A DNA stretch of 36,974 nt from Gemmatimonadota bacterium (GTDB lineage Bacteria > Gemmatimonadota > Gemmatimonadetes > Gemmatimonadales > GWC2-71-9): contig JACQVB010000132.1 in the NCBI GenBank assembly GCA_016209985.1, positions 1 through 36,974 of the forward strand. Reading direction: 5' to 3'. The notes below the pieces were generated by a model. That model ran no database searches and had not been told where the DNA came from. It saw nothing but the letters and a program-made list of their open reading frames with translations. Below are positions 219 through 30,888 of this stretch, one piece after another (the first letter of the stretch is position 1; each line of letters begins with the position of its first letter). A program made the translations under genes and the position numbers.

Positions 219-341
219 CGCATGGCCCGACGTCCGAAGGAGGTACGTGGTTCCGCCGATGGTTGGTATTCGCTCGCTCCGTTTAGATGTAGCCGTTGGT
301 TGTCGAGCGTAAGTGTGCAGACGAGAACCTGGAGGATACCG

Positions 342-1265
342 ATGGTTGGACAAGTCCTGAATCGATTTTCCTGCGTGGGAACCGCCGTCATGCTTCTGGC
401 GGTCGTTGCGACCGGTGTCGCCGTGGCCCAGCAGCGGCCGGTTGACTGGGTGGCGCTGAATCCGGCGTTCGCGGGCGCCACTCGGGTGAACGACCGGGAG
501 CAGTGCACCCCGTGCCATACCGACGTCATGGAGACGTTCACGTCAACGCGACATGCCCGGGCGTTTCGGCATGCCAGCATGCCGGAGGGCGGCGAGTGCG
601 AGAGCTGCCATGGCCCCCGCAGCAAACACGTCGAAGAGCCCAACGATTCGTTGGCCTGGAGCCGGCTGACTGCCCGGCAGCAGTCCGCGGTGTGCCTCCA
701 GTGCCATGAAGGCGGGGCACGGCTGGCGTTCAAGAACGGACCGCACCTCTCTGCCGAGGTGAGCTGCACCTCCTGCCACTTCGTGATGGAGACACGCAGC
801 GAGCGCGCCCTCCTGGCCAAGGAATCGGCTCCGGCCACCTGCTACCAGTGCCACAGCGATGTGCGGGGGCAGATGTTCAAGGCCTCTCACCATCCAGTGC
901 GCGAAGGCCGGATGGATTGCGCGAGCTGCCATAACTCGCACGGCTCGACTCGGGCGCTCCTGACCAGGACTACCGTCAACGACACCTGCGTGAGCTGCCA
1001 CGCCGAGAAGCGGGGGCCGTTCGTCTGGGAGCATGCACCGGTTCGCGAGAGCTGCCTGAATTGCCACGATTCCCACGGCTCGAACAACAGCAATCTGCTG
1101 ACCAGCAAGGGCGCCTTCCTGTGCATGCAGTGTCACTCCTATGGAGGGCACGTGAACCTGCCGCGCTACAATCGGGTGAGCAGTCCATTGGCTAGCGGCT
1201 GTGTCAACTGTCACTTGGCGCCGCACGGGTCCAACCACCCGTCGGGCGCCAAGCTGACTCGCTAA
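342..1265 (+). CDS. Decaheme c-type cytochrome, MtrA/DmsE/PioA type
   Basis: The predicted protein has 307 residues with a Sec signal peptide (hydrophobic core near residues 13-26, cleavage near AVAQQ) and ten CXXCH motifs: CTPCH, CESCH, CLQCH, CTSCH, CYQCH, CASCH, CVSCH, CLNCH, CMQCH and CVNCH. Ten hemes in about 300 residues, and the closing GSNHPSG stretch, match the decaheme family that plugs an MtrB/PioB barrel and carries electrons across the outer membrane. The start at 342 is preferred because GGAGG lies six bases upstream and the signal peptide begins there; an upstream in-frame ATG at 222 adds 40 non-signal residues. The barrel gene follows after 13 bp, so the pair forms one unit. 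The direction of electron flow cannot be told from sequence. Confidence 0.93.
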   Translation: MVGQVLNRFSCVGTAVMLLAVVATGVAVAQQRPVDWVALNPAFAGATRVNDREQCTPCHTDVMETFTSTRHARAFRHASMPEGGECESCHGPRSKHVEEPNDSLAWSRLTARQQSAVCLQCHEGGARLAFKNGPHLSAEVSCTSCHFVMETRSERALLAKESAPATCYQCHSDVRGQMFKASHHPVREGRMDCASCHNSHGSTRALLTRTTVNDTCVSCHAEKRGPFVWEHAPVRESCLNCHDSHGSNNSNLLTSKGAFLCMQCHSYGGHVNLPRYNRVSSPLASGCVNCHLAPHGSNHPSGAKLTR

Positions 1266-1278
1266 GTGGAGGTGTGAC

Positions 1279-3705
1279 GTGAAACGAGTATCGCTCCTCG
1301 GTGCATTGCTGCTTCTGGCTCCCGCCGCCGCCTCGGCCCAGAACGGGCAGGGGGTGGAGGTCTCCGGTCGCGTTTCCGCGGGCGTGCAGCAGTTCGACAA
1401 TGACACCAGGTCGAGCAAGTTCACCGAATACCAGGACGTCGAGGACAACGTTTTTCTCCGGGAGATCAGACTCAACCTTTTGGACACTCGCTCCGGTCGT
1501 TACGTCGATCTCTCTGGTGCCCGGGTCATCCGGGACGACCAGAGAATCCGGCTCGAGGCCGGGCAGTTTACGCGCTGGCGCATGGGCATCGACTGGAACG
1601 CCATCCCGCACAATCTGAGCTTCAAGGCCCAGACGCCCTACACCGAACCGAGCGCGGGCCAATTCGTGGTACCCGCGACGGTGCCGATCACGTTCAAGAA
1701 GCTCAACACGGTCGCCGCCGATGCCGCCCAGGTGGTGGCGATGGATTCCCTGGTCGGGGCGTATGCCCTGGCGAATGTCCGGCCGGTGGATCTCGGGACG
1801 CAGAGGAACCAGGGGGCGGTGTCGGTGCGCTACAGCCCGGCGCAATCCTTCGCATTCGGAGCCGGATACTCGCTGACGCGGAAAACCGGTTCCAAGCTCT
1901 CCTACGGACCGATCGGGGACCGGCCTCCGCGGACCCTCAACATTCAGCTTGCCGAGCCAGTGGATTACCGGACCGGCGATCTGACGTTTTCGGCCGAGCA
2001 TCTCGGCCGCGGCTACCAGGCGCGGGCGGAGTACCTCTTCTCGGCCTTCACCAACAACGTCCCGACGCTCCTCTGGCAGAACGTCTACACCACGGCGGCG
2101 CCCGGCGCCCTGTTCGATACCTGGGATCGGGCCGTCTCGACATTCGGCCGGAGGCCCTTGCCCCCCGATAACCGTTACCACCAAGCCACCGTCTCGTTGG
2201 GCGGTGATCTTCCGCGCAACAGCCGGCTCACGGGATCGGCGTCATACGGCCGGATGAGCCAGGATGAGACCCTGGTGCCCTACAGCTTCGACTCCCAGTT
2301 TCTCGTGAATCCTACGTTGCCGCGGGGAACCGCCCAGGCGCGGATGGATGTCACGCAACTCGCGGCCGATTACAGCATCGTACCGGTGGCCCCGCTCAAT
2401 CTGCGCGCCTTCTACCGGCGGCACGATCTGGACAACAAGACCCCGGAAAGCCAGTGGCAGTACGTCACCCAGGACACCCGGAACCTGAACGGCACCGTCA
2501 GCTACAAGAACAAGCGCGTGAGTCTGGCCTATGCGTACACCCGCCAGAATCTCGGCCTCGATGCCGACTACCGGCTGCCTTTCTTGCGGAGCAGTCTGCA
2601 GGGATCCTTCGAGCGCGAGAACATCGACCGGGTGCACCGCGAAGCTGCCACCACGGAAAACATCATCCGGGTGACCTGGCGTTCCCGGCCGGTGCGTGGC
2701 CTGTCGCTCCGGGCCCGTTACCTCCGTGGCCAGCGCGACGGCGGGATCTACGACTGGACGGTCACCAAGGCGGGCTACTGGTACCTGCAGAGTGAGGCGA
2801 ACGACAACGACAACCCGGTGCTGTCGTTCAACGATCATCCGGACATGCGGCGCTTCGACGTGTCCGACCGAAAACGGGACCAGGTCGACGTGACCGCCGG
2901 ACTCACGCTGCGTGACAATCTCTCGCTGTCGGCGACGATGCGGATTCAGAAGGACGACTACGACTCAGGTGTCCTGTCGATACAGCCCATGTCCGACCTC
3001 AATGAGTTCACGCCCGGCGACCAGCTCGGTCTCCTGACCGACAAGCGGCGCCGCTACTCCATCGATGCCTTCTATGCGCCGGTCGAAGCGCTGGCATTGA
3101 ATGCCTTCTACGGCTGGGAATCCCGAGCCAGGCTCCAGCGGTCGATCGAGTTCAATGAGAACAACAAGCGGAACCCGGCGACCGTGGCCACGGCCGATCT
3201 GGGCCCATGGACCCGCGCCAGCAGTGAATGGATGGCCGACACGGATGACCGCGTCCGTAACGCGGGTGCCGGCGCGAGCTACACTTTCAAGAACGGACTC
3301 TCGGTCTCGGCCAGCTACTCGGTATCGCTGGGTCGCATCGACATCGATTACAGCGGCTACGGCGTCACCAACTTCAACGGGGCGCCGTTCGCCGACAATT
3401 TCCAGTTTGGGTTCCGCACTCCGCCCACCACCCAGCACGACCTCCACGCTCTCGACGCCCGGGTGGAAATCCCCGTCCGTGGCAATCTTGGACTGGCCCT
3501 GAGTTACACGTATGAGCGCTACACCGTGGCTGACTGGCAGCAGGAGCAGGTCGAACCCTGGTTCGAGCCGGTGTCCAGCGAGTACCTGCTGCGCGATACG
3601 TCCCGCTCGCACCAGTGGGGCAATCGCCTGTTCAACCTCGGAAGCCTCCTCGCGCCGTCGTATCGGGCCCACGCCGGCCACGCGGCATTCACCTATCACT
3701 TTTAG
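1279..3705 (+). CDS. MtrB/PioB-family outer-membrane beta-barrel
   Basis: An 808-residue protein with a signal peptide (cleavage near AAASAQ), no heme motifs, and alternating hydrophobic/polar strands rich in Tyr, Arg and Asp. It ends in phenylalanine (FTYHF), typical of outer-membrane barrels. Length and position directly after a decaheme cytochrome match MtrB/PioB, the porin that sheathes the decaheme protein and lets electrons cross the outer membrane. The start is a GTG at 1279 with a good Shine-Dalgarno (GTGGAGG, seven to eleven bases upstream). The barrel encoded at 12310-14619 belongs to the same family but is clearly divergent in sequence. No extracellular MtrC/OmcA-type decaheme lipoprotein follows, so the pair may act as a two-part conduit as in PioAB or MtoAB. 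Confidence 0.9.
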   Translation: MKRVSLLGALLLLAPAAASAQNGQGVEVSGRVSAGVQQFDNDTRSSKFTEYQDVEDNVFLREIRLNLLDTRSGRYVDLSGARVIRDDQRIRLEAGQFTRWRMGIDWNAIPHNLSFKAQTPYTEPSAGQFVVPATVPITFKKLNTVAADAAQVVAMDSLVGAYALANVRPVDLGTQRNQGAVSVRYSPAQSFAFGAGYSLTRKTGSKLSYGPIGDRPPRTLNIQLAEPVDYRTGDLTFSAEHLGRGYQARAEYLFSAFTNNVPTLLWQNVYTTAAPGALFDTWDRAVSTFGRRPLPPDNRYHQATVSLGGDLPRNSRLTGSASYGRMSQDETLVPYSFDSQFLVNPTLPRGTAQARMDVTQLAADYSIVPVAPLNLRAFYRRHDLDNKTPESQWQYVTQDTRNLNGTVSYKNKRVSLAYAYTRQNLGLDADYRLPFLRSSLQGSFERENIDRVHREAATTENIIRVTWRSRPVRGLSLRARYLRGQRDGGIYDWTVTKAGYWYLQSEANDNDNPVLSFNDHPDMRRFDVSDRKRDQVDVTAGLTLRDNLSLSATMRIQKDDYDSGVLSIQPMSDLNEFTPGDQLGLLTDKRRRYSIDAFYAPVEALALNAFYGWESRARLQRSIEFNENNKRNPATVATADLGPWTRASSEWMADTDDRVRNAGAGASYTFKNGLSVSASYSVSLGRIDIDYSGYGVTNFNGAPFADNFQFGFRTPPTTQHDLHALDARVEIPVRGNLGLALSYTYERYTVADWQQEQVEPWFEPVSSEYLLRDTSRSHQWGNRLFNLGSLLAPSYRAHAGHAAFTYHF

Positions 3706-4710: not shown

Positions 4711-5058
4711 ATGAGACGGTCCACGCTGGTGATTGGATTGGTGCTGGCCTTCGTCGCGGTGGCACCGCGGCTGCAGGCGCAGGGTCCCGACGGAAAAGCG
4801 CTGTACGACAAGAACTGCAAGACCTGCCACGGCGCGCAGGGTGCGCCGCCGGCGGCGCTGGCGAAGAAAATGAAAATCCCCACCATCGACGCGGCTTATC
4901 TGGCGAAGGTGTCCGACGATTCGATACTGAAGGTGATGACCAACGGCAGCAAGAACATGAAGCCGATGAAGGACAAGCTGACGGAGCCCGAGTTGGCCGC
5001 CATAGGGAAGCACGTCAGAGAGGTGGTCGGTGCCGGGGCGGCGAAGCCCGGCTCCTGA
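4711..5058 (+). CDS. Periplasmic monoheme cytochrome c (copy 3 of 3)
   Basis: A 115-residue class I cytochrome c with a signal peptide, CKTCH heme motif and KNMKPMKDK Met loop. It is closer to copy 1 than to copy 2: both share the PTIDxAYLAKVSDDS stretch. It has its own leader and lies beyond a strong terminator, so it can be expressed apart from copies 1-2. AAGAGGAAG lies upstream of the ATG. The C-terminus carries a short extra Gly/Ala tail. Likely an electron shuttle for the multiheme complexes on either side. Confidence 0.9.
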   Translation: MRRSTLVIGLVLAFVAVAPRLQAQGPDGKALYDKNCKTCHGAQGAPPAALAKKMKIPTIDAAYLAKVSDDSILKVMTNGSKNMKPMKDKLTEPELAAIGKHVREVVGAGAAKPGS

Positions 5059-5092
5059 AACATGATCGAAAGAACATGAAAAGTTGTTACCG

Positions 5093-5124
5093 ACGCGCTC
5101 CACTTGGTAAACTGTGGAGCGCGT
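5093..5124 (+). terminator. Perfect 11-bp hairpin, probable terminator
   Basis: ACGCGCTCCAC pairs perfectly with GTGGAGCGCGT around a ten-base loop, 35 bp after the stop of the third small cytochrome. The following bases (TGGTGTTTCG) form only a weak T-tract, so termination strength is uncertain. It separates the small cytochromes from the six-gene operon that begins at 5265. Confidence 0.6.
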
Positions 5125-5264
5125 TGGTGTTTCGTAAGTGATCCTTACATGGGTATTCAAGTCCCCTTTTGCCGCCACGCGCGAATGTACCCCCACTGAG
5201 CGACGTGAGTCAGCCCGCCGCGCGTGAAGCATTTCAGACAACGTGAAACTCGAAGGTGAGATTC

Positions 5265-5717
5265 ATGAACGGCATCGTTGAGCGGGTCAGACCGGGCTTC
5301 ACCGAGCTGCTGCTCTTCGGTGTGATTCTGCTCATACTGACAGGAACGGGAATCGGGATTGCCCTATACCTGGTTCCTTCCGAGCGCCTTCAGATTCCCG
5401 AGCTACAGCCCAGCGTGCGTGTCATCCGCGAGGCCGATCTCCCGGTCGGGGGGAGCCGGGTGGTGAACTGGGGCGATCGGATCATTCTGCTGGTCCGGGG
5501 CGGGGAACGGCGGTACTTCGCGCTGAACGGCGTCTCGCCGGTCGACGGGTGCATCCTGCGCTGGGACCCGGATGCGCTCCGTGTCGTTTCACCCTGCGGG
5601 TATCTGGTCTACGACTCCCGCGGCAACGTGGTTGCGGGTCTCACCACCACGCCGCTCTCCAGTTACGCGGTCGTGGTACGTGACGGCACGATCTACGTCA
5701 CGGAACCCCACCGATGA
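5265..5717 (+). CDS. Rieske-fold membrane protein without cluster ligands
   Basis: A 150-residue protein with one N-terminal membrane anchor (about residues 14-37) and a periplasmic domain that aligns with Rieske proteins. The first Rieske box is S91-P-V-D-G-C96 where a canonical one reads C-T-H-L-G-C; the second is S109-P-C111-G112 where a canonical one reads C-P-C-H. Both ligand Cys and both ligand His are thus replaced (by Ser, Val, Ser, Gly), while the two Cys that form the structural disulfide (C96, C111) remain. Their spacing of 15 residues equals that in the intact Rieske at 25639-26142 (C102, C117). The family ending (GxVxxG, PLxxYxV, DGxIYV) is present. It should hold no [2Fe-2S] cluster. 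ATG at 5265 follows GAAGGTGAG; a GTG at 5256 is less likely. The stop overlaps the cytochrome b start (ATGA). Confidence 0.85.
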   Translation: MNGIVERVRPGFTELLLFGVILLILTGTGIGIALYLVPSERLQIPELQPSVRVIREADLPVGGSRVVNWGDRIILLVRGGERRYFALNGVSPVDGCILRWDPDALRVVSPCGYLVYDSRGNVVAGLTTTPLSSYAVVVRDGTIYVTEPHR

Positions 5718-6991
5718 TAGCGATGCGGAAGTGGATCGCGCGGTGGCTGTCCCAGTTCTGGAACGACCTCAAGGCCAGCACCGACACCGGGGTACTCGCC
5801 GTCGCACGGTTTGTCGGGCTGCTCTACGGACCCATTGACGGCCAACTGCGCATCGATGAGGCGCTCCGGAAAGCGTTGCGGTACCGCCTGCCGGGCCACG
5901 TGTCGTGGCGTCACGCGCTCGGCGGCATCACCTACTTGCTGTTCATCGTGCTGATCGTGACGGGAGTGCTGCTCTCGTTCTACTACCGGCCATCGGCGCA
6001 GGAAGCCTATCCCAGCATCCGGTTCATCGTTTCCCAGGTCTCACTCGGCTGGCTGATGCGCGACCTGCACGTGTGGGCCGCCAGCCTGATCGTGATCGCG
6101 GTGCTGGCACACATGGCGCGCGTCTTCGTCGACGCCGCCTACAAGCCGCCCCGCGAGACCAACTGGCTGGTGGGTCTTCTCCTGCTGTTCCTGGTTCTCG
6201 CGTTCGGAGCCAGCGGCTACCTGTTGCCCTGGGACCAGTGGTCCTACTGGACCGTGACGCAGGTGCTCGATACGCTGTCCCGTCTGCCGCTCCTCGGGCC
6301 GATCGTGGTGGGCGTGCTCCGGGGCGACAGCATCGTTTCGGGGGCCACCCTGAGCCGCTTCTTCGCGATCCACGTCATCATTTTGCCCTGGGTGGCCCTG
6401 GCACTCCTCGGTTTCCATTTCACCCTGGTTCGAAAACACGGGATCGCGCCGCCCAAGCACGAGGTTGCCGGCACTGCGCCCTCGGTGCCGTTCTTCCCGC
6501 ATCATCTGCTCCGATCGTTGCGCGTGGCACTGGTGGTGCTGGCGATTGTCATCAGCGCGGCCGCGCTGTTTCCCCGGCCCGTCGCCCACGTCGCCAATCC
6601 GTATGAGCCGCCCGATCAGCTGGTATCGACCTGGGTGCCGGTAGACGTCTCGCTAGCCCTGATTCGCTACCTGGGGCCGTGGGGCCTGGCGCTGTTCACC
6701 TTGCTCGGCGTGGCGCTGGCACTCATTCCCCTGTTCGATCGGCGTCCGGAGCGCGATCTGCGCCACCGGCCGCTGGTGGCGGCGCTGGGGCTGGTATTCC
6801 TGCTCGGCTTCGCGGGTGCCTGGCTGGTGGGACGGCAGGTTCGCTCGGTGCTTCCCAGCGCTCGCTCCGGAGAGCCGGCGCTCGAAGCAGGCAGCGTGCC
6901 CGCAGAACCGGGCGTGGTACTGCCGGACCTGGGGCCTACCCCGCCGCGTCCAGCCGATCCGGCTCCCGCCGCATTACGGGGAGCCCAGTGA
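5714..6991 (+). CDS. Cytochrome b of bc/b6f type, PEWY motif lost
   Basis: A 425-residue integral membrane cytochrome b. The N-terminal four-helix part carries the four heme-b ligands: H119 and H133 (13 residues between) and H220 and H235 (14 between, the b6f/Bacillus spacing). The C-terminal helices are present, but where the paralogue at 24179-25636 has PKPEWYFLPLY this protein reads STWVPVDVSLAL, so the Qo-site Glu is missing. A Pro/Ala-rich hydrophilic tail of about 50 residues ends the protein. It is translationally coupled to the ligand-less Rieske (ATGA) and to the nonaheme cytochrome (GTGA). It probably binds quinone and two b hemes but should not bifurcate electrons; these would pass instead to the multiheme partners. 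A second ATG at 5723 is an alternative start. Confidence 0.88.
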   Translation: MIAMRKWIARWLSQFWNDLKASTDTGVLAVARFVGLLYGPIDGQLRIDEALRKALRYRLPGHVSWRHALGGITYLLFIVLIVTGVLLSFYYRPSAQEAYPSIRFIVSQVSLGWLMRDLHVWAASLIVIAVLAHMARVFVDAAYKPPRETNWLVGLLLLFLVLAFGASGYLLPWDQWSYWTVTQVLDTLSRLPLLGPIVVGVLRGDSIVSGATLSRFFAIHVIILPWVALALLGFHFTLVRKHGIAPPKHEVAGTAPSVPFFPHHLLRSLRVALVVLAIVISAAALFPRPVAHVANPYEPPDQLVSTWVPVDVSLALIRYLGPWGLALFTLLGVALALIPLFDRRPERDLRHRPLVAALGLVFLLGFAGAWLVGRQVRSVLPSARSGEPALEAGSVPAEPGVVLPDLGPTPPRPADPAPAALRGAQ

Positions 6992-8232
6992 TCCGCCGGG
7001 TGGTTCGCGCGCTGCTCATCGGGGGCGCTTTGGCTACCTGGCGGCCGGTCCCGCTGCAGGCGGCCGCGCCTCCCGCTTCCGCCGTGGTCCAGGATACGGT
7101 TGGATACGGCTGCGTCATTTGTCACGCCGACAAACGCCGGGCGTTCCAGCTCGGCGTGCATGCCGATCGCGGGATTCGGTGCGACCGGTGCCACGGCGGC
7201 AATCCGAAAGCCTTCGCGCTACCGGCCGCGCACACCGGCCGCTTCCTCGGGAAGCCGAGCAAGGTAGGAACGGCATTGCTATGTGGGTCCTGTCACTCGG
7301 ACCCGGACCAGATGCGGCAGTATGGCCTGCCGGCGGGACAACTCGCCGAGCTCAAGACCAGCCGTCATGGGCAACTGCTGTTCCGCGGCAACACGGATGT
7401 CCCGACCTGCACCAATTGCCACGACGCGCATACGGTACTGCCGCCGGTCGACGCCCGCAGCAGCGTGTATCCCACCAATATCCCGGGCACCTGCGCCGGA
7501 TGTCACCAGAACAAGACGCTGATGGCCAGGTACGGACTGCCGACGGGCCAGCTGGTGGACTATGAGAAGGGAGCGCATGGCACCGCACTCTTCGAGCGCC
7601 AGAATTTTGCGGCCCCCACCTGCATCGGTTGCCACGGGTCGCACGCGGCCCTGCCGCCGCGCGTCACCGAGATCGTGCACGTGTGCGACCGCTGCCACGC
7701 CGAGCTGGGACGGGCGTTGTATCGCGGGCCCCATGGGCAGCCGGCGCTTTCCGGTAAGCTGCCGGGATGCCTCGGGTGTCACACGAATCACTCCACCGAG
7801 CGGGTCCCGCCCGAGCGTATCGCGGCGGTCTGCACCCGCTGTCACACCCCCGATAGTCCAGCGGCGCTGCGGGGGGTGGAGATTCAACGGCGAGTGGTCC
7901 AGGCGATGGCCGACAAGCAGGCCGCGGAGCAGGCGATCGAGGACCTCGTCCGCTCGGGCCGCCAGGTGACCGATGAGCGGTTCCGCTACCAGACCCTGAT
8001 CACCGACTACCAGCAGATCGCGGAGGTCCAGCACAGCCTCGACCTGGACCAGCTCGACGACCTGCGTCTCCGGGTCGGATCGGTCTCCGCCAGCATTCGC
8101 ACGACCGCGGAGCGCGCGGCCGAGCAGCGATGGGAGCACAAGCTCATCCTGATCCCGGTGTGGTTCTTAGCCCTGGCGGCGGTGGCGCTGGTCCGCTTCA
8201 AGTTCAGCGAGCTGGGGCGCCGGGGGGAATGA
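6988..8232 (+). CDS. Membrane-anchored nonaheme cytochrome c
   Basis: 414 residues starting with GTG that overlaps the cytochrome b stop. An N-terminal signal sequence (near residues 6-26) is followed by nine CXXCH motifs (CVICH, CDRCH, CGSCH, CTNCH, CAGCH, CIGCH, CDRCH, CLGCH, CTRCH) in the first 290 residues, then a heme-free helical stretch and a C-terminal transmembrane helix (around LILIPVWFLALAAVALV). It is therefore a periplasmic nonaheme domain anchored at its C-terminus to the inner membrane. Internal repetition is visible: the phrase YGLPxGQL occurs twice, about 65 residues apart, each time after a heme motif. The gene overlaps both neighbours by four bases. Likely it takes electrons from the b-type subunits. 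The exact family is not recognised. Confidence 0.88.
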   Translation: MIRRVVRALLIGGALATWRPVPLQAAAPPASAVVQDTVGYGCVICHADKRRAFQLGVHADRGIRCDRCHGGNPKAFALPAAHTGRFLGKPSKVGTALLCGSCHSDPDQMRQYGLPAGQLAELKTSRHGQLLFRGNTDVPTCTNCHDAHTVLPPVDARSSVYPTNIPGTCAGCHQNKTLMARYGLPTGQLVDYEKGAHGTALFERQNFAAPTCIGCHGSHAALPPRVTEIVHVCDRCHAELGRALYRGPHGQPALSGKLPGCLGCHTNHSTERVPPERIAAVCTRCHTPDSPAALRGVEIQRRVVQAMADKQAAEQAIEDLVRSGRQVTDERFRYQTLITDYQQIAEVQHSLDLDQLDDLRLRVGSVSASIRTTAERAAEQRWEHKLILIPVWFLALAAVALVRFKFSELGRRGE

Positions 8233-10031
8233 CACCGGTGGAAACGTCGCCCTTCCGCCAACGCTTCGGCCGCGCGCTCACGATTGCGATCCAGGCCGGG
8301 ATTCTGGTGATCATCCTCCTGTCGATCGGGACGGTCGGATTCATCGAGTACAGCGGGCAGCCCGGCTTCTGCAACCAGTGCCACATCATGCGGCCCTATT
8401 ACGAATCGTGGGCCAGCTCTTCGCACAACCAGGTGCCGTGCATCAAGTGCCACTACGCCCCGGGAATCAAGGCCGAGGCGATGGGGAAGTTCCAGGCCGC
8501 CAATCAGCTCGTGAAGTACGTCACGGGAGCGTACGGAGCGAAGCCATGGGCCGAGATCGAGGACGCCGCCTGCACCCGTTCCGGGTGTCATTCCACCCGG
8601 AAGCTCGAGGGCCCGACCGTCTTCAGGGGCGTCCTGTTCGACCACTCCCGGCACCTGAGCGAGCTGCGCCGGGGCAAGCAGCTGCGCTGTACCAGTTGTC
8701 ACTCACAGATCGTGCAGGGCCAGCACCTGACCGTGACCGAGTCCACCTGCTTCCTGTGCCATTTCAAGGATCGGCCGGTGGGCCAGCCGGTGGGCGGCTG
8801 CATCGGATGCCATCCGGCGCCGCCGCGGCTGGTCCAGCCCGCCGGGTTCGTGGTGGATCACGCGCAATACGTGAAGGACGCGGTTTCCTGTGTGTCCTGC
8901 CACCGGCACGTCACCAGCGGCGAGGGCGCGGCGCAGCAGCAGCGGTGCTTCAGTTGCCACAACGAGCCCGCGCGCCTCAAGGAGTTCGAGAATACCACGC
9001 TGGTGCACCGCGTGCACATCGCCGAGCACAATATCGAGTGCCTCCAGTGCCACACCCAGATCGAGCACCGGGTGGTGGAGCTGGCATCCACGTTCCAACT
9101 CGACTGCGCCGCGTGCCACCAGCGGGTGCACGACGCGCAGCAACGTCTGTATGCGGGGCTGGGCGGAAACGGCGTGAAGGAGCGGCCGAGTACCATGTTC
9201 CAGGCGAACGTGTCCTGCCAGGCCTGCCACGGGCTGCCCGCCGAGATCCGCGGACACGAGCAAGTGAACCGCGCCGGAGAGGCGTCCTGCATGTCGTGTC
9301 ACGGCATCCGCTACGCCAACATCCTGCCCGCGTGGCAGCGGGAGATGCAACGGAAGGCGGATCTGGTGTCTTCGGTGATCGCTGATGCGCGTTCCAGCGT
9401 GAGCGCCGCGCCCGCCCGGACCCGGTCCGCCGCCGACAGCGTCCTGCGCCTCGCGACCGAGAATCTGGAGCTGGTGAAGGTGGGCCGGAGCGCGCACAAC
9501 GTGGCGTTTGCGGACGAGCTGCTCCGCGCGTCGGTGAATTTCGTCGAGCGGGCGGTGCGGATCGGCACCCTCTCCTACCGCGTGCCGCAAGTGAATCTGG
9601 GACCGCCCATCGGGGAAGGTAGCTGCCTCCAATGCCACGTGGGCGTCGAGCGGAAGACCGTGCGGGCCGGCACCGAGGAGTTCCCCCATGAGCGTCACGT
9701 GGTGAGCGGCGGTCTGGCCTGTACCACATGCCATACGCCGCTCTCCGATCATGGGAAAACCGTGGTTTCGCGGACCGGGTGCGCCAGTTGCCATCACCGG
9801 CAAACCGAGCCTGCGTCCTGTACCCGTTGCCATACCGGCGCCGCCGGCGGCGCTCCCGACACGACGATCGCCTTCCCGGTGGCGGCCTTCCCCCACCCAC
9901 CTCACATCGAGTTGGAGCTCGAGTGCAATACCTGCCATAACCCGCCCGCCATGAAAGTTGCGGCGGGCGCGTGCTCCGACTGTCACGAGTTTCCCGCCCC
10001 GGCGGACACCGCAAAGGCCGGCGGCGGTTAG
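8229..10031 (+). CDS. 18-heme membrane cytochrome with NapC/NrfH-like N-terminus
   Basis: 600 residues. One N-terminal transmembrane helix (about 18-40) is followed by CNQCHIM and SSHNQVPCIKCH, the signature of NapC/NirT/NrfH quinol dehydrogenases, in which the Met two residues after the heme His can ligate heme 1. In all there are 17 CXXCH motifs plus one CX4CH (CTRSGCH, residues 115-121, bases 8571-8591), giving up to 18 hemes. A heme-free helical domain (about residues 360-450) splits the protein into a 12-heme and a 6-heme part. It has no signal cleavage site and no C-terminal anchor. ATGA overlap with the upstream gene shows coupling. The N-terminal NapC-like unit could itself take electrons from quinol. 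The size is far above NapC or NrfH (4 hemes). Confidence 0.88.
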   Translation: MTPVETSPFRQRFGRALTIAIQAGILVIILLSIGTVGFIEYSGQPGFCNQCHIMRPYYESWASSSHNQVPCIKCHYAPGIKAEAMGKFQAANQLVKYVTGAYGAKPWAEIEDAACTRSGCHSTRKLEGPTVFRGVLFDHSRHLSELRRGKQLRCTSCHSQIVQGQHLTVTESTCFLCHFKDRPVGQPVGGCIGCHPAPPRLVQPAGFVVDHAQYVKDAVSCVSCHRHVTSGEGAAQQQRCFSCHNEPARLKEFENTTLVHRVHIAEHNIECLQCHTQIEHRVVELASTFQLDCAACHQRVHDAQQRLYAGLGGNGVKERPSTMFQANVSCQACHGLPAEIRGHEQVNRAGEASCMSCHGIRYANILPAWQREMQRKADLVSSVIADARSSVSAAPARTRSAADSVLRLATENLELVKVGRSAHNVAFADELLRASVNFVERAVRIGTLSYRVPQVNLGPPIGEGSCLQCHVGVERKTVRAGTEEFPHERHVVSGGLACTTCHTPLSDHGKTVVSRTGCASCHHRQTEPASCTRCHTGAAGGAPDTTIAFPVAAFPHPPHIELELECNTCHNPPAMKVAAGACSDCHEFPAPADTAKAGGG

Positions 10032-10036
10032 GAGGA

Positions 10037-11353
10037 ATGGTGCGACCTAACTTGCGCCCGTGGCTCAAGGGTCCCGCGACCGCATGGCGCGTCGCGGGGA
10101 GCCCCGTCTGCCGGCTGCTGCTCCTTGCGGTCCTGTGGGCGGTACTGCCGGGCGTCGCGGCGGCTCAGGGACCCGACGCCGTCGACTGCCAGCAATGCCA
10201 CGGGGACCGGGAGATGTTCGCGGCAGATGACTCCGCGACCGCGAGAATGTTCGTTCCCGATTCGCTACTCCGCGAGACGCGGCACCAGAAACTGCGCTGC
10301 GCCGATTGTCACCCGGAGCACGCGAGCGGTTTCCCCCACGAGGCATCCGCCAAGGCGGTGCAGTGCCAGTCGTGCCATAAGCAGGAGGGAGCCGAGTGGG
10401 CACCATCGATTCACGCGGCGAATGCGCGCACCGCCGGGGACGCGCCCAACTGTGTGAGCTGCCACGGCAACCATACGGTGCTGGGCGCGGCGGACCGCCG
10501 CTCGCCGACGCATCCGCTGAACCTGGCGGCCATGTGCGGCCGCTGCCACTCCGACCCGCGCATCATCGGCACCTACTTCATGGCGCCCAGCGGCGCGCAG
10601 GCCCGCGTGGCGGTGGCACAGTACTACGAGACGGTGCACGGCAACGCCCTCACGCGCGACGGGCTGGTCGTGTCGGCCACCTGCAACGATTGTCACGGCG
10701 CTCACAAGATCCTCCCAGCCAAGTCGCCCGAGTCGTCCGTCAACCACGCCAACATCCCGAAGACCTGCGGTACCTGTCATGTGGGGATCCTGGAGAGCTA
10801 CGAGCAGTCGGCGCACGGCAAGGCGATCGGGAACGGCGCCGCAGGCGCGAAGCCGGCCCCGGTGTGCACCGATTGCCATTCGGGACACCAGATCGTACGG
10901 GCCGACCAGCCGAAATGGTTCATGGGCGTGGTGGAGGAGTGCGGAACCTGCCACCGGCGGCTCTACGAGACCTACTTCACCACCTACCATGGACAGGTGA
11001 CCAAGCTGGGCTTCGGCCTGACAGCCAAGTGCAGCGATTGCCACACGGCCCATGAGATCCGGCCCCGGACTGATCCGCAGTCGTCGGTGTACCCGGCGAA
11101 TCTCCAGCGCACCTGCCAGCGCTGCCACCCCGCGGCCAATGCCAACTTCGTCAAGTACTACTCGCACGGCGATTCCCACGAGCGAACCAGGTATCCGGCG
11201 CTGTATTGGGCGTCTATGGGCATGAACCTGCTCCTCGCCGGTGTGTTCGGCTTTTTCGGCATTCACACCCTGCTGTGGATGAACCGGCTCGCCATCAACC
11301 ACGTGCGATCCCGCCGGGCGGCCAAGGCGCCGTCCGAGGAGAAGGCGCCATGA
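10037..11353 (+). CDS. Membrane-anchored undecaheme (11-heme) cytochrome c
   Basis: 438 residues with a signal peptide (hydrophobic core near residues 27-43, cleavage near AAAQ), eleven CXXCH motifs (CQQCH, CADCH, CQSCH, CVSCH, CGRCH, CNDCH, CGTCH, CTDCH, CGTCH, CSDCH, CQRCH) and a C-terminal transmembrane helix near MNLLLAGVFGFFGIHTLLWM. Several motifs carry GH, AH or GNH just after, typical of cytochrome c3-like and NrfB-like multihemes. AGGAGG ends one base before the ATG at 10037, so the GTG at 10040 is a possible real start and would remove only one residue. It is the only junction in this operon with a short gap rather than an overlap. It resembles the nonaheme protein in layout (heme domain plus C-terminal anchor). 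Confidence 0.87.
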   Translation: MVRPNLRPWLKGPATAWRVAGSPVCRLLLLAVLWAVLPGVAAAQGPDAVDCQQCHGDREMFAADDSATARMFVPDSLLRETRHQKLRCADCHPEHASGFPHEASAKAVQCQSCHKQEGAEWAPSIHAANARTAGDAPNCVSCHGNHTVLGAADRRSPTHPLNLAAMCGRCHSDPRIIGTYFMAPSGAQARVAVAQYYETVHGNALTRDGLVVSATCNDCHGAHKILPAKSPESSVNHANIPKTCGTCHVGILESYEQSAHGKAIGNGAAGAKPAPVCTDCHSGHQIVRADQPKWFMGVVEECGTCHRRLYETYFTTYHGQVTKLGFGLTAKCSDCHTAHEIRPRTDPQSSVYPANLQRTCQRCHPAANANFVKYYSHGDSHERTRYPALYWASMGMNLLLAGVFGFFGIHTLLWMNRLAINHVRSRRAAKAPSEEKAP

Positions 11354-12198
11354 GTGAGCTCCTGAGCGTTTCGAACCGGGGTGAGGGACCCTACCTCCGC
11401 CGGTTCACCGTTCTCGACCGGACGCTGCACGCGCTGGTCATCGTGTCTTTCCTTGGCCTGGTGATGACCGGCGCACCGCTCCGCTTTCCCTTCAGCGGCT
11501 GGGCCCATACGCTGTCCCGGCTCCTGGGCGGCTTCCAGACGGCCGGATTCGTCCACCGCGTGTGCGCCATCATCACGTTCGGCTATTTCGCGGCCCACCT
11601 AGCGAAGGTGACCGTGCTCCTGTTCCGCACCACGGACAAGAAGTCGATCTTCTGGGGGCCCAACTCGATGGTCCCTCAGCCTAAGGACCTGCGGGACGTC
11701 ATCCAGATGTTCAAGTGGTTTTTCGGGCGGGGTCCGCAGCCGCGCTTCGACCGGTTCAGCTACATGGAGAAATTCGACTACCTGGGAGTGTTCTGGGGCG
11801 TGGCCATCATCGGCGCCTCCGGATTGATGCTCTGGTTTCCCGAGTTCTTCGCGCGGGTGCTTCCCGGCTGGGCGTTCAACGTGGCCACCATCGTGCACGG
11901 GGAAGAAGCGCTGCTCGCGCTGGGATTCATTTTTACCATCCACTTTTTCAACGTGCACCTGCGGCCGGGAAAATTCCCCATCGATCTGGTGATCTTCACC
12001 GGCTCCGCCACCGCGGACTACATGAAGGAAGAGCATCCGCTGGAATACGAACGGCTGCAACAGGCCGGGCGGCTGGCCGAGCTGGAGACTCCGGCCCCTT
12101 CGCGCCAGTTCTACGTGTGGTCACTCATACTCGGGTTCACCTCCCTTGCCCTGGGCATCACCATGATCGTTCTCGTCCTCTGGGGGGCGCTGCGGTAG
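11350..12198 (+). CDS. Five-helix b-type cytochrome (FdnI/HydC/CbcL-like)
   Basis: 282 residues with five predicted transmembrane helices and conserved His in them (TLHAL, FVHRV, FAAHLAK, IVHGEE, IHFFNVHLRP). The layout fits the cytochrome b561-type gamma subunits of formate dehydrogenase and hydrogenase and the b-type domain of Geobacter CbcL, which pass electrons between quinone and periplasmic multihemes. The loop HLRPGKFPID and the following IFTG are typical of the variant found with multiheme cytochromes. ATGA overlap with the 11-heme gene shows coupling, and a terminator follows, so this is the last gene of the operon. It gives the operon a second possible quinone site beside the bc-like core. 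Confidence 0.85.
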   Translation: MSELLSVSNRGEGPYLRRFTVLDRTLHALVIVSFLGLVMTGAPLRFPFSGWAHTLSRLLGGFQTAGFVHRVCAIITFGYFAAHLAKVTVLLFRTTDKKSIFWGPNSMVPQPKDLRDVIQMFKWFFGRGPQPRFDRFSYMEKFDYLGVFWGVAIIGASGLMLWFPEFFARVLPGWAFNVATIVHGEEALLALGFIFTIHFFNVHLRPGKFPIDLVIFTGSATADYMKEEHPLEYERLQQAGRLAELETPAPSRQFYVWSLILGFTSLALGITMIVLVLWGALR

Positions 12199-12309: not shown

Positions 12310-14619
12310 CTACCGGAATCTCAGCGCATGGGGTGTCATCCCGATGTTGTAACCCAGCGTGACGATGATGTAGTTCGCCCGGTAGGGCTGCAGTCCGCCG
12401 CCGAGAGAAAGGTCACCGTTCCAGTTGGTCGCGGGGTAGGTGGAGGTCCCGGTGAAGATGTATGCCGGAACCAGGCCGTCGGTCCTCCAATCCGAATTGT
12501 TCAGCTTCTGGAACCCGTAGGTAACGGTGGCCGACCAGTTGGACGCGACGCGGTAGCGCAGCGATCCGTTGATCCGGTGCATCTTGCGGGTAACCGGCTG
12601 CCAGGCATCGCCGGCAACGGCAGAGAGGTTCTGCGCCGCATTGTTGCCGCCGGTGGGCGTGGTGGGGTTGGTCGTGCTCACCTGTGTCTTGGCATTGGTA
12701 TAGACCCACAGGCCACCGAGCTCCAGCTTGTCGGGCACCAGGGTGATTTCGAGACCCGCGTTCGCCGTATGGATGTTGTCCTCGGTGTTCGACACCCAGT
12801 CATACGACGTGTTGTCCAGCTGCGGGATCGGGTTCGTCCCCGAAGCGGCCTGCCGGAAGCGCGACCGTTGAATCCAGGTCACTCGCTCGCGCTGGTACCC
12901 GGCGAACAGCGACCCGCGGTCGGTGAGGGCATAGGAAACGTCTCCGCCGATGCCCCAGTTCTGATCGTCAGAGACGCCGTACACCGGATTGGGGTTCTGG
13001 CCGACCTGATAATTGTTCTTGGCCAGGTTGTAGGTGAGGGTGAAACCCAGCGGCCCAGGCGGGGTGATCTGGCTCACTACATCGAGACGATTCTGATCCC
13101 GGTCGGACTGGTCGAAGCGGCGCAACGCCGGGTTCTCGACCGTCATGACAGGGGTGTACTCGCTGTAGCGCCGCCACGAGCGCGAGAAGGAGGTGCGCAG
13201 AACCGCATACTGCGTCACTTCCAGGTCCATCGCCGCGCGGGGCTGATGCTCGTTGGTGATCGGCGCCTCGCGCGTCTCGGTCCGGTTCCAGCGCTCCCAG
13301 TTCCAGCCCAGCTTGAAGCTGACCGGGCTTCCCGTCGGGTGCAGGCCGACATCGAACCGGCCCAGCTGCCGCCCGTAAGGATGGGTCTCGCGCTCGAAGA
13401 ACGTACCGGCGGGCGCGTTGGCAATACTGCGGTCGCTGACGACCTCCAGCGGAAACTCTTTCATCGGCGTCTCGTCCATGGTCTTATAGCGGCGGTACTT
13501 GGCGCTGACATTCACGCCTTTCACCGGCCGGGACGTCGCCGCGAGTTGCAGGTTCAAGGTGCGCTGATCGCCCTCGAGGCTCCGCGCATCGGCCGGCAGC
13601 TGCGCTACGTCGTTGAGCGGCAGGCCCCCTGAGAGAAGCAGCGGGTTCATGGTGTAGGGCAGAAACGCCTGGTCCTGCTTCCACAGGCTGTACGCGACCG
13701 TACCAACCAACCGCGTCTTCAGCGGCAGCTGGGCCGCGGTTCCGGTCAAGTTGAACATGTGGGCGAGGTTCTCCGGCGCGAGCGCGGAGTGGCCTGCCGT
13801 CGGAGCCGTCCCAGTCACCGCCTGCGGGTTATCCGCCATCACGCCGTCAACCGCGTTGCTGAAGATGGACAGGTCATAGCCCATCAGCAACTGATAGCGC
13901 GACTTCCCGCCGATACTCTGCGAAATCTTGAAGCTCTGGGTGATCTGGTCGATCGGCTCCAGGATCTCCCGGTAGTTGCTTCCCGGGCTGCCCATCGACA
14001 TCCCCATGGGGCGGTTGCCCTGCTTCTTGGTGCGGTTGTACTCCGCGCGAACATCCCACCCGTCCTTGGGACTGACCTTCAACGCCACCCGTCCGGCATC
14101 CCACCGATTCGCGACCGGATTCACCAAATAGGGCGAATTGGAGTTGTAAATCGTGGGGTCCGTGGTCGGCCGGACGGCGGGAAGCCCGAACGTGCCGATC
14201 TGTGCGTCGCCGCCATAAAGTTGGCTGGTCGTCGAGTATAGGTGTGGCGTCTGATTCCAGGAGACGTCGAAGGTGAACTTGTTCGGCTGATACGCCGTGA
14301 AGGAGAACTGCTGGTCGCTCCGGCCGATATCGAAGGCGCGCACCTCGGCGAAGATCTTGTCCGCCGAGTTGAAGCGAAGGTGCGCGTTCGGCAAGTAGCC
14401 GCCGTCGTACATGTTGGTGTACTCACCGAACCGGGCCCACGCGCGGTCGCCGGGCTTGTTGCTGGTGCCGAGGAAAGCCCGGCCCCCCACGTCGATGACG
14501 CCGCTCAGCGTGCCACCGGCAAAGGGTACCTGGGCCGAAAGCGGTCTACTGACGCCCATCAGCGTGAATACGCCGATCCAGGCGAGCAGCCCCGCAATGG
14601 TGCGTATTTGTCGGGTCAT
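12310..14619 (-). CDS. MtrB/PioB-family outer-membrane beta-barrel, second copy
   Basis: 769 residues with a signal peptide (hydrophobic core, cleavage near SRPLSAQ), no heme motifs and the Tyr/Arg/Asn-rich alternating strands of an outer-membrane barrel. It lies directly after a decaheme gene in the same order as the pair at 342-3705. The last residues are ALRFR, so a terminal Arg follows the usual closing Phe. ATG at 14619 with CGGAG upstream is chosen. An in-frame ATG at 14649 overlaps the decaheme stop (ATGA) and would add ten residues to the signal peptide; given how often this genome uses such overlaps, it is a real alternative. The two barrels are diverged family members rather than a recent duplication. 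Confidence 0.88.
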   Translation of the reverse strand: MTRQIRTIAGLLAWIGVFTLMGVSRPLSAQVPFAGGTLSGVIDVGGRAFLGTSNKPGDRAWARFGEYTNMYDGGYLPNAHLRFNSADKIFAEVRAFDIGRSDQQFSFTAYQPNKFTFDVSWNQTPHLYSTTSQLYGGDAQIGTFGLPAVRPTTDPTIYNSNSPYLVNPVANRWDAGRVALKVSPKDGWDVRAEYNRTKKQGNRPMGMSMGSPGSNYREILEPIDQITQSFKISQSIGGKSRYQLLMGYDLSIFSNAVDGVMADNPQAVTGTAPTAGHSALAPENLAHMFNLTGTAAQLPLKTRLVGTVAYSLWKQDQAFLPYTMNPLLLSGGLPLNDVAQLPADARSLEGDQRTLNLQLAATSRPVKGVNVSAKYRRYKTMDETPMKEFPLEVVSDRSIANAPAGTFFERETHPYGRQLGRFDVGLHPTGSPVSFKLGWNWERWNRTETREAPITNEHQPRAAMDLEVTQYAVLRTSFSRSWRRYSEYTPVMTVENPALRRFDQSDRDQNRLDVVSQITPPGPLGFTLTYNLAKNNYQVGQNPNPVYGVSDDQNWGIGGDVSYALTDRGSLFAGYQRERVTWIQRSRFRQAASGTNPIPQLDNTSYDWVSNTEDNIHTANAGLEITLVPDKLELGGLWVYTNAKTQVSTTNPTTPTGGNNAAQNLSAVAGDAWQPVTRKMHRINGSLRYRVASNWSATVTYGFQKLNNSDWRTDGLVPAYIFTGTSTYPATNWNGDLSLGGGLQPYRANYIIVTLGYNIGMTPHALRFR

Positions 14620-14645
14620 ATGTCTCAACTCCGCTGGATGGCTGT

Positions 14646-15578
14646 TCATCGGGTGAAGGTGACGCCCGACGGATGGTTCGAGCCGTGAATGTTGAAATGG
14701 CAATTGGAGCACTGTCTGCTGAACAGGAAGCGGCTGTTGGTCCCACCCATGTTGTTGGTCGCGTCGGCGACGTAAGGCCGGGTGGGGTGCTGGGTCTCAT
14801 CGTGGCAGCGCTGGCAGAGCCGCGGCCGTGGAACGACGAGCTGCTTCTCATTGTTCGTGCCATGCGGGTCGTGACAATTGCTGCAGCTCTCGGCCACGGG
14901 AGCGTGCTCCCAGAGGTACGGGCCACGTTTTTCGGTGTGGCAGGAGTAGCAGGTCTCGTTGACGTTGTTGGCGACCAGTAGCTTGTCGGTCGCCGTCCCA
15001 TGGGGCTGATGGCAGCTGTTGCAATCCATCTTGCCCTCGCGTACCGGCATGTGCGCGAACCGCTGCATCTGGTTCTTCTTCTGGGCGTGACACTGGCCGC
15101 AGGTCTCCATGGCCGTCGCGTACTTGAGCATGTTGCGCTCGGAGACCTGCTTCATCAGCGTGTGGCAGTTGGTGCAGGCCACGTCGCGGGATTCGTGTGC
15201 CGCGCCCGCCCACATGGTGCGGTTGCCGCCGCTGTGACACTCGAGGCAGGTCTGGTTCCGCTCCTCGACCGGCGTGGGATCGTCCTTCTTGAACGTGATC
15301 AGACCGGTCTTGACCTCACCGCCCGACTCGGCATGAAGTTTCGCCTGGCCGTGACACCCCTCGCAGCCCCGTTGTTCCCTTGCGTTCTCGGGATGCTTGA
15401 GGAAGAGCGATCCCATCTTCGTCTGGCTGAAGGACTCTATCTGGTTTTGATGACACTGGGCGCAGGCCTCCTGCCCTGCGTACCCGTTCTGCTCTTGCGC
15501 CGCGAGCCGGCGGCCCGGCGCCAAGATCAGAAGTGCGGCGAGCGCCGCAATGGTGTAGTGAATACTTCGATCTGTCAT
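14646..15578 (-). CDS. Decaheme c-type cytochrome, MtrA/DmsE type, second copy
   Basis: 310 residues with a signal peptide (cleavage near RLAAQ) and ten CXXCH motifs: CAQCH, CEGCH, CLECH, CTNCH, CGQCH, CNSCH, CYSCH, CSNCH, CQRCH and CSNCH. The spacing follows the decaheme protein at 342-1265, and the phrases CHTEKRGPYLWEHAPV here and CHAEKRGPFVWEHAPV there, with GSNHPSG at both ends, show homology. AAGGAGG lies upstream of the chosen ATG at 15578. It should occupy the second barrel and form an independent outer-membrane conduit. The 160 bp upstream separates it from the diheme lipoprotein gene and probably carries a promoter, though none is clear by eye. Confidence 0.93.
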   Translation of the reverse strand: MTDRSIHYTIAALAALLILAPGRRLAAQEQNGYAGQEACAQCHQNQIESFSQTKMGSLFLKHPENAREQRGCEGCHGQAKLHAESGGEVKTGLITFKKDDPTPVEERNQTCLECHSGGNRTMWAGAAHESRDVACTNCHTLMKQVSERNMLKYATAMETCGQCHAQKKNQMQRFAHMPVREGKMDCNSCHQPHGTATDKLLVANNVNETCYSCHTEKRGPYLWEHAPVAESCSNCHDPHGTNNEKQLVVPRPRLCQRCHDETQHPTRPYVADATNNMGGTNSRFLFSRQCSNCHFNIHGSNHPSGVTFTR

Positions 15579-15738
15579 TCGGAATTCCTCCTTACAGCCG
15601 GCCGACACGTGAGCAGCGCGCCGACTGCTCTAGACTTCGCTGGTCCGCCCAAGACTGCTTCATGAGTGAGGTGACAATGATCCTGCCGTCATTAAGTGTG
15701 GCAAAAGCGATCCTGAAGACTCCCTTAACCGCCCGGGT

Positions 15739-16702: not shown

Positions 16703-17941
16703 TCACCGGTCGCCTCTGGAGGTGTCGGGCGCGGTCCGGGTGGGGACGGGGAGGGCGCGACTGGTGCGAGGGAGCGCCTGGAGATAAGCCGAGAGGTCCC
16801 GCATCTCGTCTCCTTCAAAACGGGGCCACTCCACGTTCTGGGACTGGGTGATCGTGAACATGGCGGGGGCGTGGTTCCACATGGCCGTGGCCAGCCCCAG
16901 AGGAGTCTGAATCGCTTTGGAGCTCGACAGGTCCGGTCCAATGGGCGACGTAGTCCAGGGCGCGTGGCAGCTCGAGCATCCCTTTCGCAGCAGCACGCGT
17001 TCTCCGGCCTTGGGGTCGCCCCCCGCTTCCATGAAGCGCAGGTAGTAGAGGAACGCGATCACGTCCGCCATCTCGGTGCCCAGGAACTGCGGAAAGGTCA
17101 CCCCTTGGGCCTGCATCGCGGCCGACATCTGGAAGGAGTGGTTCCACAGGACACCGGCGATTTCCGACACTCTGAGCCGCAGCGTGGCGGAGCGGAGATC
17201 CGGTGCCACCGAGGTGCCGCGGCCGCCGGATCCGTGGCAGCGCCCGCACCCTTTCGCGGTAAAGAGCCGCTCTCCGCTGGCGGGATTGGGCGCTTGGAGG
17301 AAGACGATATCCCTCCCGCGGAGGCTCGAGGCGCGGCGGATGAACGCCTGAATGTCCGCCATCTCCCGGCCCTGGAATGTGGGAATCGGGACGCCCGTGG
17401 CCTGCTGCCTGGCTTGCATGGCCGGCCCATGGTTCCACATTCCTTCGGCCAACATGATCGGCGCCACGTACCGGGCGTACTTGTCCAGCGCGGGACCGAT
17501 TCGCCCGCCGCTGCCACCGACGGAATGGCATTCCACGCAACGCTTCGAGCGGAACCACTGCTCGCCCAGATCGGGATCCCCGGGCTCGTCGAACAGCTTC
17601 ACATAGTAGATGTAGCTGATGATGTCGGCGAGCTCGGCTTCGGTGAACGTGGCCCATTGAAAGCCGCGGCGCCGCACGGTCTCACTCATCCGGGGCGTAT
17701 GGTTCCAGAACAGGCCGGCGAGCTGCTGCATGCTGCGGCCGGCGCCCACGATGGCAAAGTCGGGTCCCAGCGTGCCGCCGTTGCCCCAGATGGAATGGCA
17801 CCGCACACAGCCCCGTTCCAGGAAAATCCGCCGGCCATTGGCCGGATTGCCGGCGAAGGACGAGGCGGATTGCGCCTGGGCGAGAGGACCCGCGACCAGC
17901 TGCAGCGCCGCGAACGTGGCAAGAAGCAGGTGACTGTTCAT
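16703..17941 (-). CDS. Tetraheme cytochrome c built of four class I domains
   Basis: 412 residues with a signal peptide (cleavage near AQAQ) and four tandem monoheme domains (CVRCH, CVECH, CGRCH, CSSCH). Each domain carries a WNH phrase with a Met three or four residues on (WNHTPRM, WNHGPAM, WNHSFQM, WNHAPAM), the likely axial ligand, and a ...FxGxEMADI...FxYY.. helix. This is a four-fold tandem repeat of a class I fold rather than a compact multiheme protein. The start ATG at 17941 overlaps the stop of the NrfD-type gene (TGATG). In this cluster it probably replaces the monoheme exit cytochrome of alternative complex III and hands electrons to soluble carriers. The C-terminal tail is Pro/Thr/Arg-rich. 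Confidence 0.88.
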   Translation of the reverse strand: MNSHLLLATFAALQLVAGPLAQAQSASSFAGNPANGRRIFLERGCVRCHSIWGNGGTLGPDFAIVGAGRSMQQLAGLFWNHTPRMSETVRRRGFQWATFTEAELADIISYIYYVKLFDEPGDPDLGEQWFRSKRCVECHSVGGSGGRIGPALDKYARYVAPIMLAEGMWNHGPAMQARQQATGVPIPTFQGREMADIQAFIRRASSLRGRDIVFLQAPNPASGERLFTAKGCGRCHGSGGRGTSVAPDLRSATLRLRVSEIAGVLWNHSFQMSAAMQAQGVTFPQFLGTEMADVIAFLYYLRFMEAGGDPKAGERVLLRKGCSSCHAPWTTSPIGPDLSSSKAIQTPLGLATAMWNHAPAMFTITQSQNVEWPRFEGDEMRDLSAYLQALPRTSRALPVPTRTAPDTSRGDR

Positions 17942-19305: not shown

Positions 19306-19991
19306 GTTCCGGCCCTCGGCGTGAGGTAGTAGACCTTGGGCTCCGTGCCCAGGTCTTCCATCAGGCGCATGGCGCGGGCGTCGTGCTTCAGCTCGGCCAC
19401 CCGGTGTTGGGGATCGTCGAGATCACCGAAGACGATCGCGCCGGTGGGACACGCATCCACGCAGGCGGGTTGATAGTCGGCCTCCCGCAACTCTCGTCCC
19501 TCGGCGCGCGCGTCTTCGCGAGCTTTTTGCAAGCGGTGATGGCAGAAGGTGCACTTCTCGATCACACCCTTGGGCCGGACCGACACGTCCGGATTCAGGT
19601 GGGCCCGTTCCGACTCCGGCCACTCAGGCGCAAACCAGTTGAAGTACTTCACGGTGTAGGGGCAGGCGTTGGCGCAATACCGGCACCCGATGCAGCGCGG
19701 GTAGATCTGACCGACGATGCCTTCATCGTTGATGTACGTCGCCGCCACGGGACACACCTTCACGCACGGCGGATTGTCGCAATGCATGCAGGGGCGAGGC
19801 ATGAATCGCATGGTGGTGTTGGGGAATTCACCTTCCACTTCGGTCATCACCCGCATCCAGGCCGTGGCCCGTCCCAGGTCGGCCTGATCGGAGGAGACCG
19901 TCGCGACGTTGTTCTCACTCTTGCAGGCGGTCTCGCATGCTCCACACCCCGTGCAGCGGTCGAGATCGATCACCATTCCCCAGCGCGGCAT
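19302..19991 (-). CDS. Four-cluster ferredoxin subunit (PsrB/QrcC-like)
   Basis: 229 residues with sixteen Cys in four groups: CTGCGACETAC, CMHCDNPPCVKVC, CIGCRYCANAC, and CTFC with a later ACVDACP. This matches the DmsB/PsrB/QrcC family that wires the molybdopterin-type subunit to the membrane subunit with four [4Fe-4S] clusters (one may be [3Fe-4S]). No signal peptide is present; such subunits are usually exported as a complex with the Tat-bearing catalytic subunit. It starts 16 bp after the molybdopterin subunit stop, with GAGGAG touching the ATG, and its end overlaps the NrfD-type gene. Confidence 0.93.
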   Translation of the reverse strand: MPRWGMVIDLDRCTGCGACETACKSENNVATVSSDQADLGRATAWMRVMTEVEGEFPNTTMRFMPRPCMHCDNPPCVKVCPVAATYINDEGIVGQIYPRCIGCRYCANACPYTVKYFNWFAPEWPESERAHLNPDVSVRPKGVIEKCTFCHHRLQKAREDARAEGRELREADYQPACVDACPTGAIVFGDLDDPQHRVAELKHDARAMRLMEDLGTEPKVYYLTPRAGT

Positions 19992-20007
19992 CTCCTCGCC
20001 CCCCGCC

Positions 20008-25636: not shown

Positions 25637-25638
25637 GG

Positions 25639-27508: not shown

Positions 27509-27567
27509 ACCTCGCTACGCAATTGCCCCACTTTTCGGCTATTTTGGCGCCACGTAGCGTTCATCGT

Positions 27568-29184: not shown

Positions 29185-29191
29185 CCTCTCG
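29172..29191 (+). terminator. Hairpin overlapping the malate synthase stop codon
   Basis: CGAGAGGC and GCCTCTCG pair around a four-base loop, and the TAG stop lies in the hairpin. A second small hairpin (CCTC AAAAA GAGG) follows at once. There is no T-tract, so termination is only a possibility. Confidence 0.35.
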
Positions 29192-29211
29192 CCTCAAAAA
29201 GAGGAGCGGCT

Positions 29212-29485: not shown

Positions 29486-29553
29486 GGGGGCCCGCTGTTT
29501 GGGAAGACAGGAATGAGTATGAGGAACCAGGGACCAGGACCCGGAGGAAGGGA

Positions 29554-30888
<1,335 letters not shown>

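Follow-up and report, generated by a model that had tools for sequence, protein, structure and literature searches.

A cluster-free Rieske-fold subunit beside a PEWY-less cytochrome b suggests a de-bifurcated bc complex in Gemmatimonadota

Respiration and photosynthesis both depend centrally on electron bifurcation at the Qo site, a step for which the Rieske cluster is held to be indispensable. A gene at positions 5265-5717 (+ strand) of a 36,974-nucleotide stretch of Gemmatimonadota DNA (contig JACQVB010000132.1, hereafter the window) raises the question of what a Rieske subunit is kept for once the residues that hold its cluster are gone. The reading frame opens with an ATG at 5265 and closes with a stop at 5715-5717, and an ORF check ruled out a frame or coordinate error. 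The predicted 150-residue product has a short cytoplasmic tail, a single N-terminal transmembrane helix (residues 12-36), a C-terminal domain of about 100 residues and no Tat motif.

The first-pass annotation, made from the letters alone, had claimed that all four cluster ligands are lost and the two cysteines of the structural disulfide kept, and both the alignment and 33 homologues bear this out. The C-T-H-L-G-C box of intact Rieske proteins aligns to S91-P-V93-D-G-C96 (5535-5552, + strand), where the ligand Cys is now Ser and the ligand His is Val, and C-P-C-H aligns to S109-P-C111-G112 (5589-5600, + strand), where Ser and Gly stand in the ligand Cys and His positions; each box retains its disulfide-position Cys. 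C96 and C111 are 15 residues apart, exactly as in the intact Rieske protein of the same window (25639-26142, - strand; CTHLGC, CPCH, Tat RR), which served as an internal control. The further statement that the rest of the motif is kept fails for the proline loop over the cluster (5637-5657, + strand), where GLTTTPL replaces GPPPxPL; this loop has G-L/I in 32/32 family members vs G-P in 19/19 intact Rieske proteins.

Is the domain a Rieske fold at all? A phmmer search against the PDB matched Rieske proteins of b6f/bc complexes (best E 3.4e-9), and AlphaFold2 run with 22 family members returned a confident Rieske fold (pLDDT 90.4), whose best Foldseek match is the soluble Rieske domain of Chlorobaculum tepidum (8hn2_A, E 2.5e-8), superposed with an rmsd of 1.3 Å and a TM score of 0.80 by target length. 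The proposed fold prediction and structure comparison thus came out in favour of the annotated fold, and a chance resemblance was ruled out by the same three results. Pfam gives the window protein a sub-threshold Rieske_2 match only; across the family Rieske_2 is found in 18/22 sequences (E up to 0.01) and the main Rieske family in 1/22, so annotation pipelines may leave the gene unnamed. The product is thus a homologue with the Rieske fold but does not count as a Rieske iron-sulfur protein, since a check for the defining ligands showed them to be absent.

Homologues were collected from 61 relatives, from 395 genomes of the phylum and by a pattern scan of 84,980 species genomes, giving 33 distinct sequences that cover the motif. 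Wherever a source is named all 33 belong to Gemmatimonadota, with the ground outside the phylum covered by the degenerate-pattern scan only, which more divergent cluster-free homologues elsewhere would escape; the matches of that scan are titled Gemmatimonadota or its members, plus one titled only 'uncultured bacterium'. Within the phylum the gene is present in 27/395 genomes from six families, and the search separates cleanly, with the cluster-free family at E below 1e-20 and intact Rieske proteins above 1e-14.

At the four ligand columns Cys and His are absent from all 33 homologues. The first ligand Cys is replaced by Ser (26), Ala (6) or Gly (1) and the second by Ser in every sequence, while the two ligand His columns accommodate eleven and eight different residues, respectively, never His. 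Both disulfide-position cysteines are present in 33/33, as are D94, G95 and P110, and the homologue alignment upholds the identification of the aligned cysteines as the disulfide pair. R65, W69, D94, S109 and L126 hardly vary, if at all, within the family, unlike in intact Rieske proteins, which points to new constraints and not to decay. Close family pairs have dN/dS of 0.05-0.22, indicating purifying selection. The named sources are metagenome-assembled genomes, so that a decaying pseudogene or an assembly artefact in the bins comes to mind, but 33 distinct sequences free of internal stops, the dN/dS values and a conserved operon leave this explanation with hardly any probability, and a pseudogene or sequencing error was rejected on the homologues and dN/dS. 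The earlier suggestion of selection for the fold without the cluster is therefore supported by fold, homologues and dN/dS together, with the ligand loss recurring in all 33 distinct sequences.

Two alternatives would leave the subunit a redox function of its own. In the first, C96 and C111 would form a redox-active dithiol/disulfide and the subunit would act as a redox sensor or switch of the complex. Their invariance (33/33) beside the equally invariant D94 and S109 would suit such a role, but both positions are also Cys in 19/19 intact Rieske proteins, where the equivalent pair is a structural disulfide, and there is no CXXC-type reactive geometry; we consider a switch quite improbable. The second alternative is that another metal, presumably mononuclear and held by Asp, Ser or backbone atoms, still carries electrons. 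D94 and S109 do sit in the former cluster loops. Against this, the family has no conserved His, most members have no Cys beyond the disulfide pair, the two loops hold no second conserved acidic residue and the former His positions vary freely, which makes a replacement metal, if anything, slightly less credible still than a switch. A docking or structural role fits these data, though the family-specific R65, W69, D94 and S109 could serve something other than docking.

Rieske proteins are exported by the Tat pathway because their cluster is inserted before export, and loss of the signal is thus what a cluster-free protein would be expected to show. A Tat-like motif (RR-x-F/I/L/V/A before the membrane helix) is found in 2/34 family members vs 16/17 intact membrane-targeted Rieske proteins, and the membrane helix of the cluster-free family tends to be more hydrophobic than that of intact Rieske proteins. 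This rarity is consistent with export without a cytoplasmically inserted cluster.

The coupling to a cytochrome b remarked on at first reading is literal: the 425-residue partner (5714-6991, + strand) starts with an ATG at 5714 that overlaps the TGA stop of the Rieske-like gene (ATGA), and reading frames in several relatives allow the same type of overlap. All four heme-ligand histidines (H119, H133, H220, H235) are kept in 30/30 partner cytochromes b. The cd1 helix motif GYLLPWDQWxYW is kept as well. The Qo-site motif PEWY, whose Glu takes part in quinol oxidation, is absent from 30/30 partners, KPEWYF being replaced by VSTWVV or similar (STWV at 6626-6637, + strand, in the window), and PEWY or PDWY is present in 12/12 cytochromes b beside intact Rieske genes. 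The control cytochrome b of the intact complex (24179-25636, - strand) likewise has PEWY; at this locus (24179-26142) the cytochrome b that accompanies the intact Rieske gene has a monoheme cytochrome c domain fused to its C-terminus. The first-pass annotation had overlooked the absence of PEWY from every partner, which makes this a change of the whole complex and not of a single aberrant subunit.

All PEWY-less cytochromes b fall into a single clade (support 100/99). In a profile search of the 395 genomes they had E values of about 1e-88 or lower and other cytochromes b of 5e-86 or higher, and they occur in 25 genomes, each of which belongs to the 27 that carry the Rieske-like gene; for the other two carriers the contig breaks off just after or inside that gene. 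Judged by sequence, the Rieske/cytochrome b complex of this family is descended from bc complexes, yet lacks the motif by which quinol oxidation at Qo is recognised.

By alignment, changes extend to the predicted cytoplasmic side as well. The column that aligns with the canonical Qi-site Asp (D in 12/12 canonical cytochromes b) is not kept in the partners, 18/30 of which have S; this counts against the reading favoured below, whose quinone site on that side would have needed rebuilding too. The family has two typical histidines predicted to lie on the cytoplasmic side, H67 (window 5912-5914; 29/30 partners) and H264 (window 6503-6505; 28/30), which together with the altered column suggest such a rebuilding. 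The AlphaFold model of the partner (mean pLDDT 63) is too poor to show a quinone site.

Around these two genes the conserved order is an 8-heme cytochrome c, the Rieske-like gene, the cytochrome b, a 9-heme and a 21-heme cytochrome c, and usually another multiheme cytochrome c. The window departs from it in having a 17-heme in place of the 21-heme protein and monoheme cytochromes in the upstream 8-heme place. Its nine-heme cytochrome has a C-terminal membrane anchor (6679-8232 as called, + strand; the true start is probably near the end of the cytochrome b gene) and is followed by the 17-heme cytochrome with an NrfH/NapC-like N-terminus (8130-10031, + strand; 21 hemes in most relatives), an eleven-heme cytochrome with a C-terminal membrane anchor (9971-11353, + strand) and a b561-type membrane cytochrome resembling formate dehydrogenase gamma (11206-12198, + strand). 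In locus L045 one open frame of the NrfH-headed cytochrome holds 27 CXXCH motifs (5024-7798).

A second type of operon in the phylum combines an intact Rieske protein (CTHLGC/CACH), a PEWY cytochrome b and a nine-heme cytochrome, often a few kilobases from the cluster-free operon (L033 4994-8778 and L035 4522-7392, in reverse-complement coordinates). Among themselves the 9-heme cytochromes of cluster-free operons share 51-54% identity, and with those of the intact operon in L033 and L035 they share 30-39% (E down to 1e-68). On this homology the cluster-free complex resembles a paralogous copy of a functional Rieske/cytochrome b/9-heme complex that was stripped of its parts for bifurcation, and the two operons are probably paralogous.

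Could bifurcation nevertheless persist, with a heme of the nine-heme cytochrome standing in for the Rieske cluster at an altered Qo site, held in place by the apo-Rieske domain? Both b hemes and the cd1 motif are retained and the nine-heme cytochrome is an invariant neighbour, as this reading would have it. But 30/30 partners have lost PEWY and with it the catalytic Glu, and bifurcation requires a strictly one-electron, high-potential acceptor beside the site, whereas the c hemes of multiheme chains are usually of low potential. We regard persisting bifurcation as unlikely, although it deserves more weight than a switch or a replacement metal.

The explanation we favour, and consider probable, is a derived Rieske/cytochrome b complex whose Rieske subunit, the product of this gene, has no cluster: bifurcation of quinol electrons has been dismantled, the subunit has a structural or docking role and the b hemes serve as a wire. 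At the level of primary structure the cluster ligands and PEWY are gone and the fold, the disulfide-position cysteines and the b-heme ligands are kept; the electron route and its direction are what we infer from this. With neither a high-potential one-electron acceptor nor the Qo motif the Q cycle presumably cannot run, and Qo electron bifurcation would have been lost. The two b hemes would then form a transmembrane wire between a quinone site, for which the cytoplasmic side is the simplest location, and the nine-heme cytochrome, which would occupy the position of cytochrome c1/f and hand electrons to the 17/21-heme cytochrome. The Rieske domain would be an immobile structural cap or docking surface joining the P side of cytochrome b to the nine-heme cytochrome. 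Either direction is conceivable, quinol oxidation with electrons going out or quinone reduction with electrons coming in: quinol oxidation on the cytoplasmic side would have the wire spend membrane potential and push electrons to low-potential acceptors, and membrane potential would be generated in the reverse run.

In the window the electrons would probably go onward to an MtrAB-type conduit. A DmsE/MtrA-like decaheme cytochrome and an MtrB/PioB porin, forming an outer-membrane conduit, lie upstream (222-3705, + strand) and are a probable part of the wider electron-transfer context of the complex. A second such pair is found at 12310-15608, so that the pairs, one per strand, flank the multiheme operon on both sides, which points to outer-membrane electron exchange. 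Further along, a minus-strand operon (16703-22380) encodes a QrcB/PhsA-like protein of the molybdopterin family, a QrcC-like ferredoxin, a membrane subunit of the NrfD type and a protein containing several cytochrome c domains, and resembles menaquinone reductase (Qrc) or alternative complex III modules. Near this respiratory island, translations at 26965-30888 include malate synthase-like and isocitrate lyase-like ORFs side by side.

Taken as a whole, we lean towards a naturally de-bifurcated bc complex, in which cluster and Qo motif would have been lost together and a redox-silent, structural Rieske subunit retained alongside a linear wire from quinone to multiheme cytochromes for extracellular or multiheme electron transfer. 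The data suggest that the enzyme which splits electrons in respiration has become, in the course of evolution, a simple wire serving multiheme cytochromes. By shedding the cluster and the Qo motif together while the subunit and the b hemes stayed under selection, such a lineage provides a natural experiment on the purpose of each component, and in Gemmatimonadota, where this step is poorly known, the complex is a candidate for the quinone gate of multiheme electron transfer. Before a Q cycle is assigned to a cytochrome b with a neighbouring Rieske-fold gene, ligands and PEWY need to be checked.

Known systems resemble the complex in part. With the bc1/b6f Rieske proteins (nearest solved: Chlorobaculum tepidum, 8hn2) the window protein shares the fold, the single N-terminal anchor, the disulfide Cys positions and a cytochrome b neighbour; unlike them it has no cluster ligand, its proline loop is changed, the family has mostly lost Tat and the partner is without PEWY. 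NirD, the small subunit of NAD(P)H nitrite reductase (3c0d, 4aiv; Pfam Rieske_2), also has a Rieske fold and is known to lack the cluster. It is, however, a soluble cytoplasmic enzyme subunit and a weaker structural match by Foldseek than true Rieske domains, whereas the window protein is membrane-anchored, lies beside a cytochrome b and not nirB, and so is not a NirD-type soluble subunit of a siroheme nitrite reductase. A NirD-type origin was rejected, since the best sequence matches are Rieske domains of the bc/b6f type, Foldseek places NirD structures far behind its top match and the adjacent cytochrome b never varies.

Searches of the open-access literature, which lacks most subscription journals, turned up no published case of a cytochrome b complex with a cluster-free Rieske subunit. 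The Geobacter ExtMNOPQS cluster (GSU2930-2935), with 12-heme and 10-heme cytochromes, the Rieske protein ExtO and the cytochrome b ExtP, likewise brings cytochrome b, Rieske and multiheme cytochromes together (PMC5877670, PMC2825233). The partner cytochrome b shows some likeness to ExtP, scoring 213.5 bits against the ExtP model, below its 290-bit cut-off. ExtO differs from the window protein in being described as a Rieske Fe-S protein (PMC5877670, PMC2825233). Mco of anaerobic methanotrophic archaea pairs a cytochrome b with a 7-11-heme cytochrome (PMC9012536); its cytochrome b is VhtC-type, unrelated to bc complexes, and it has no Rieske domain, yet it is the system most alike in proposed working, a membrane cytochrome b that would feed electrons from a quinol-like pool into a multiheme cytochrome with no Rieske cluster involved.
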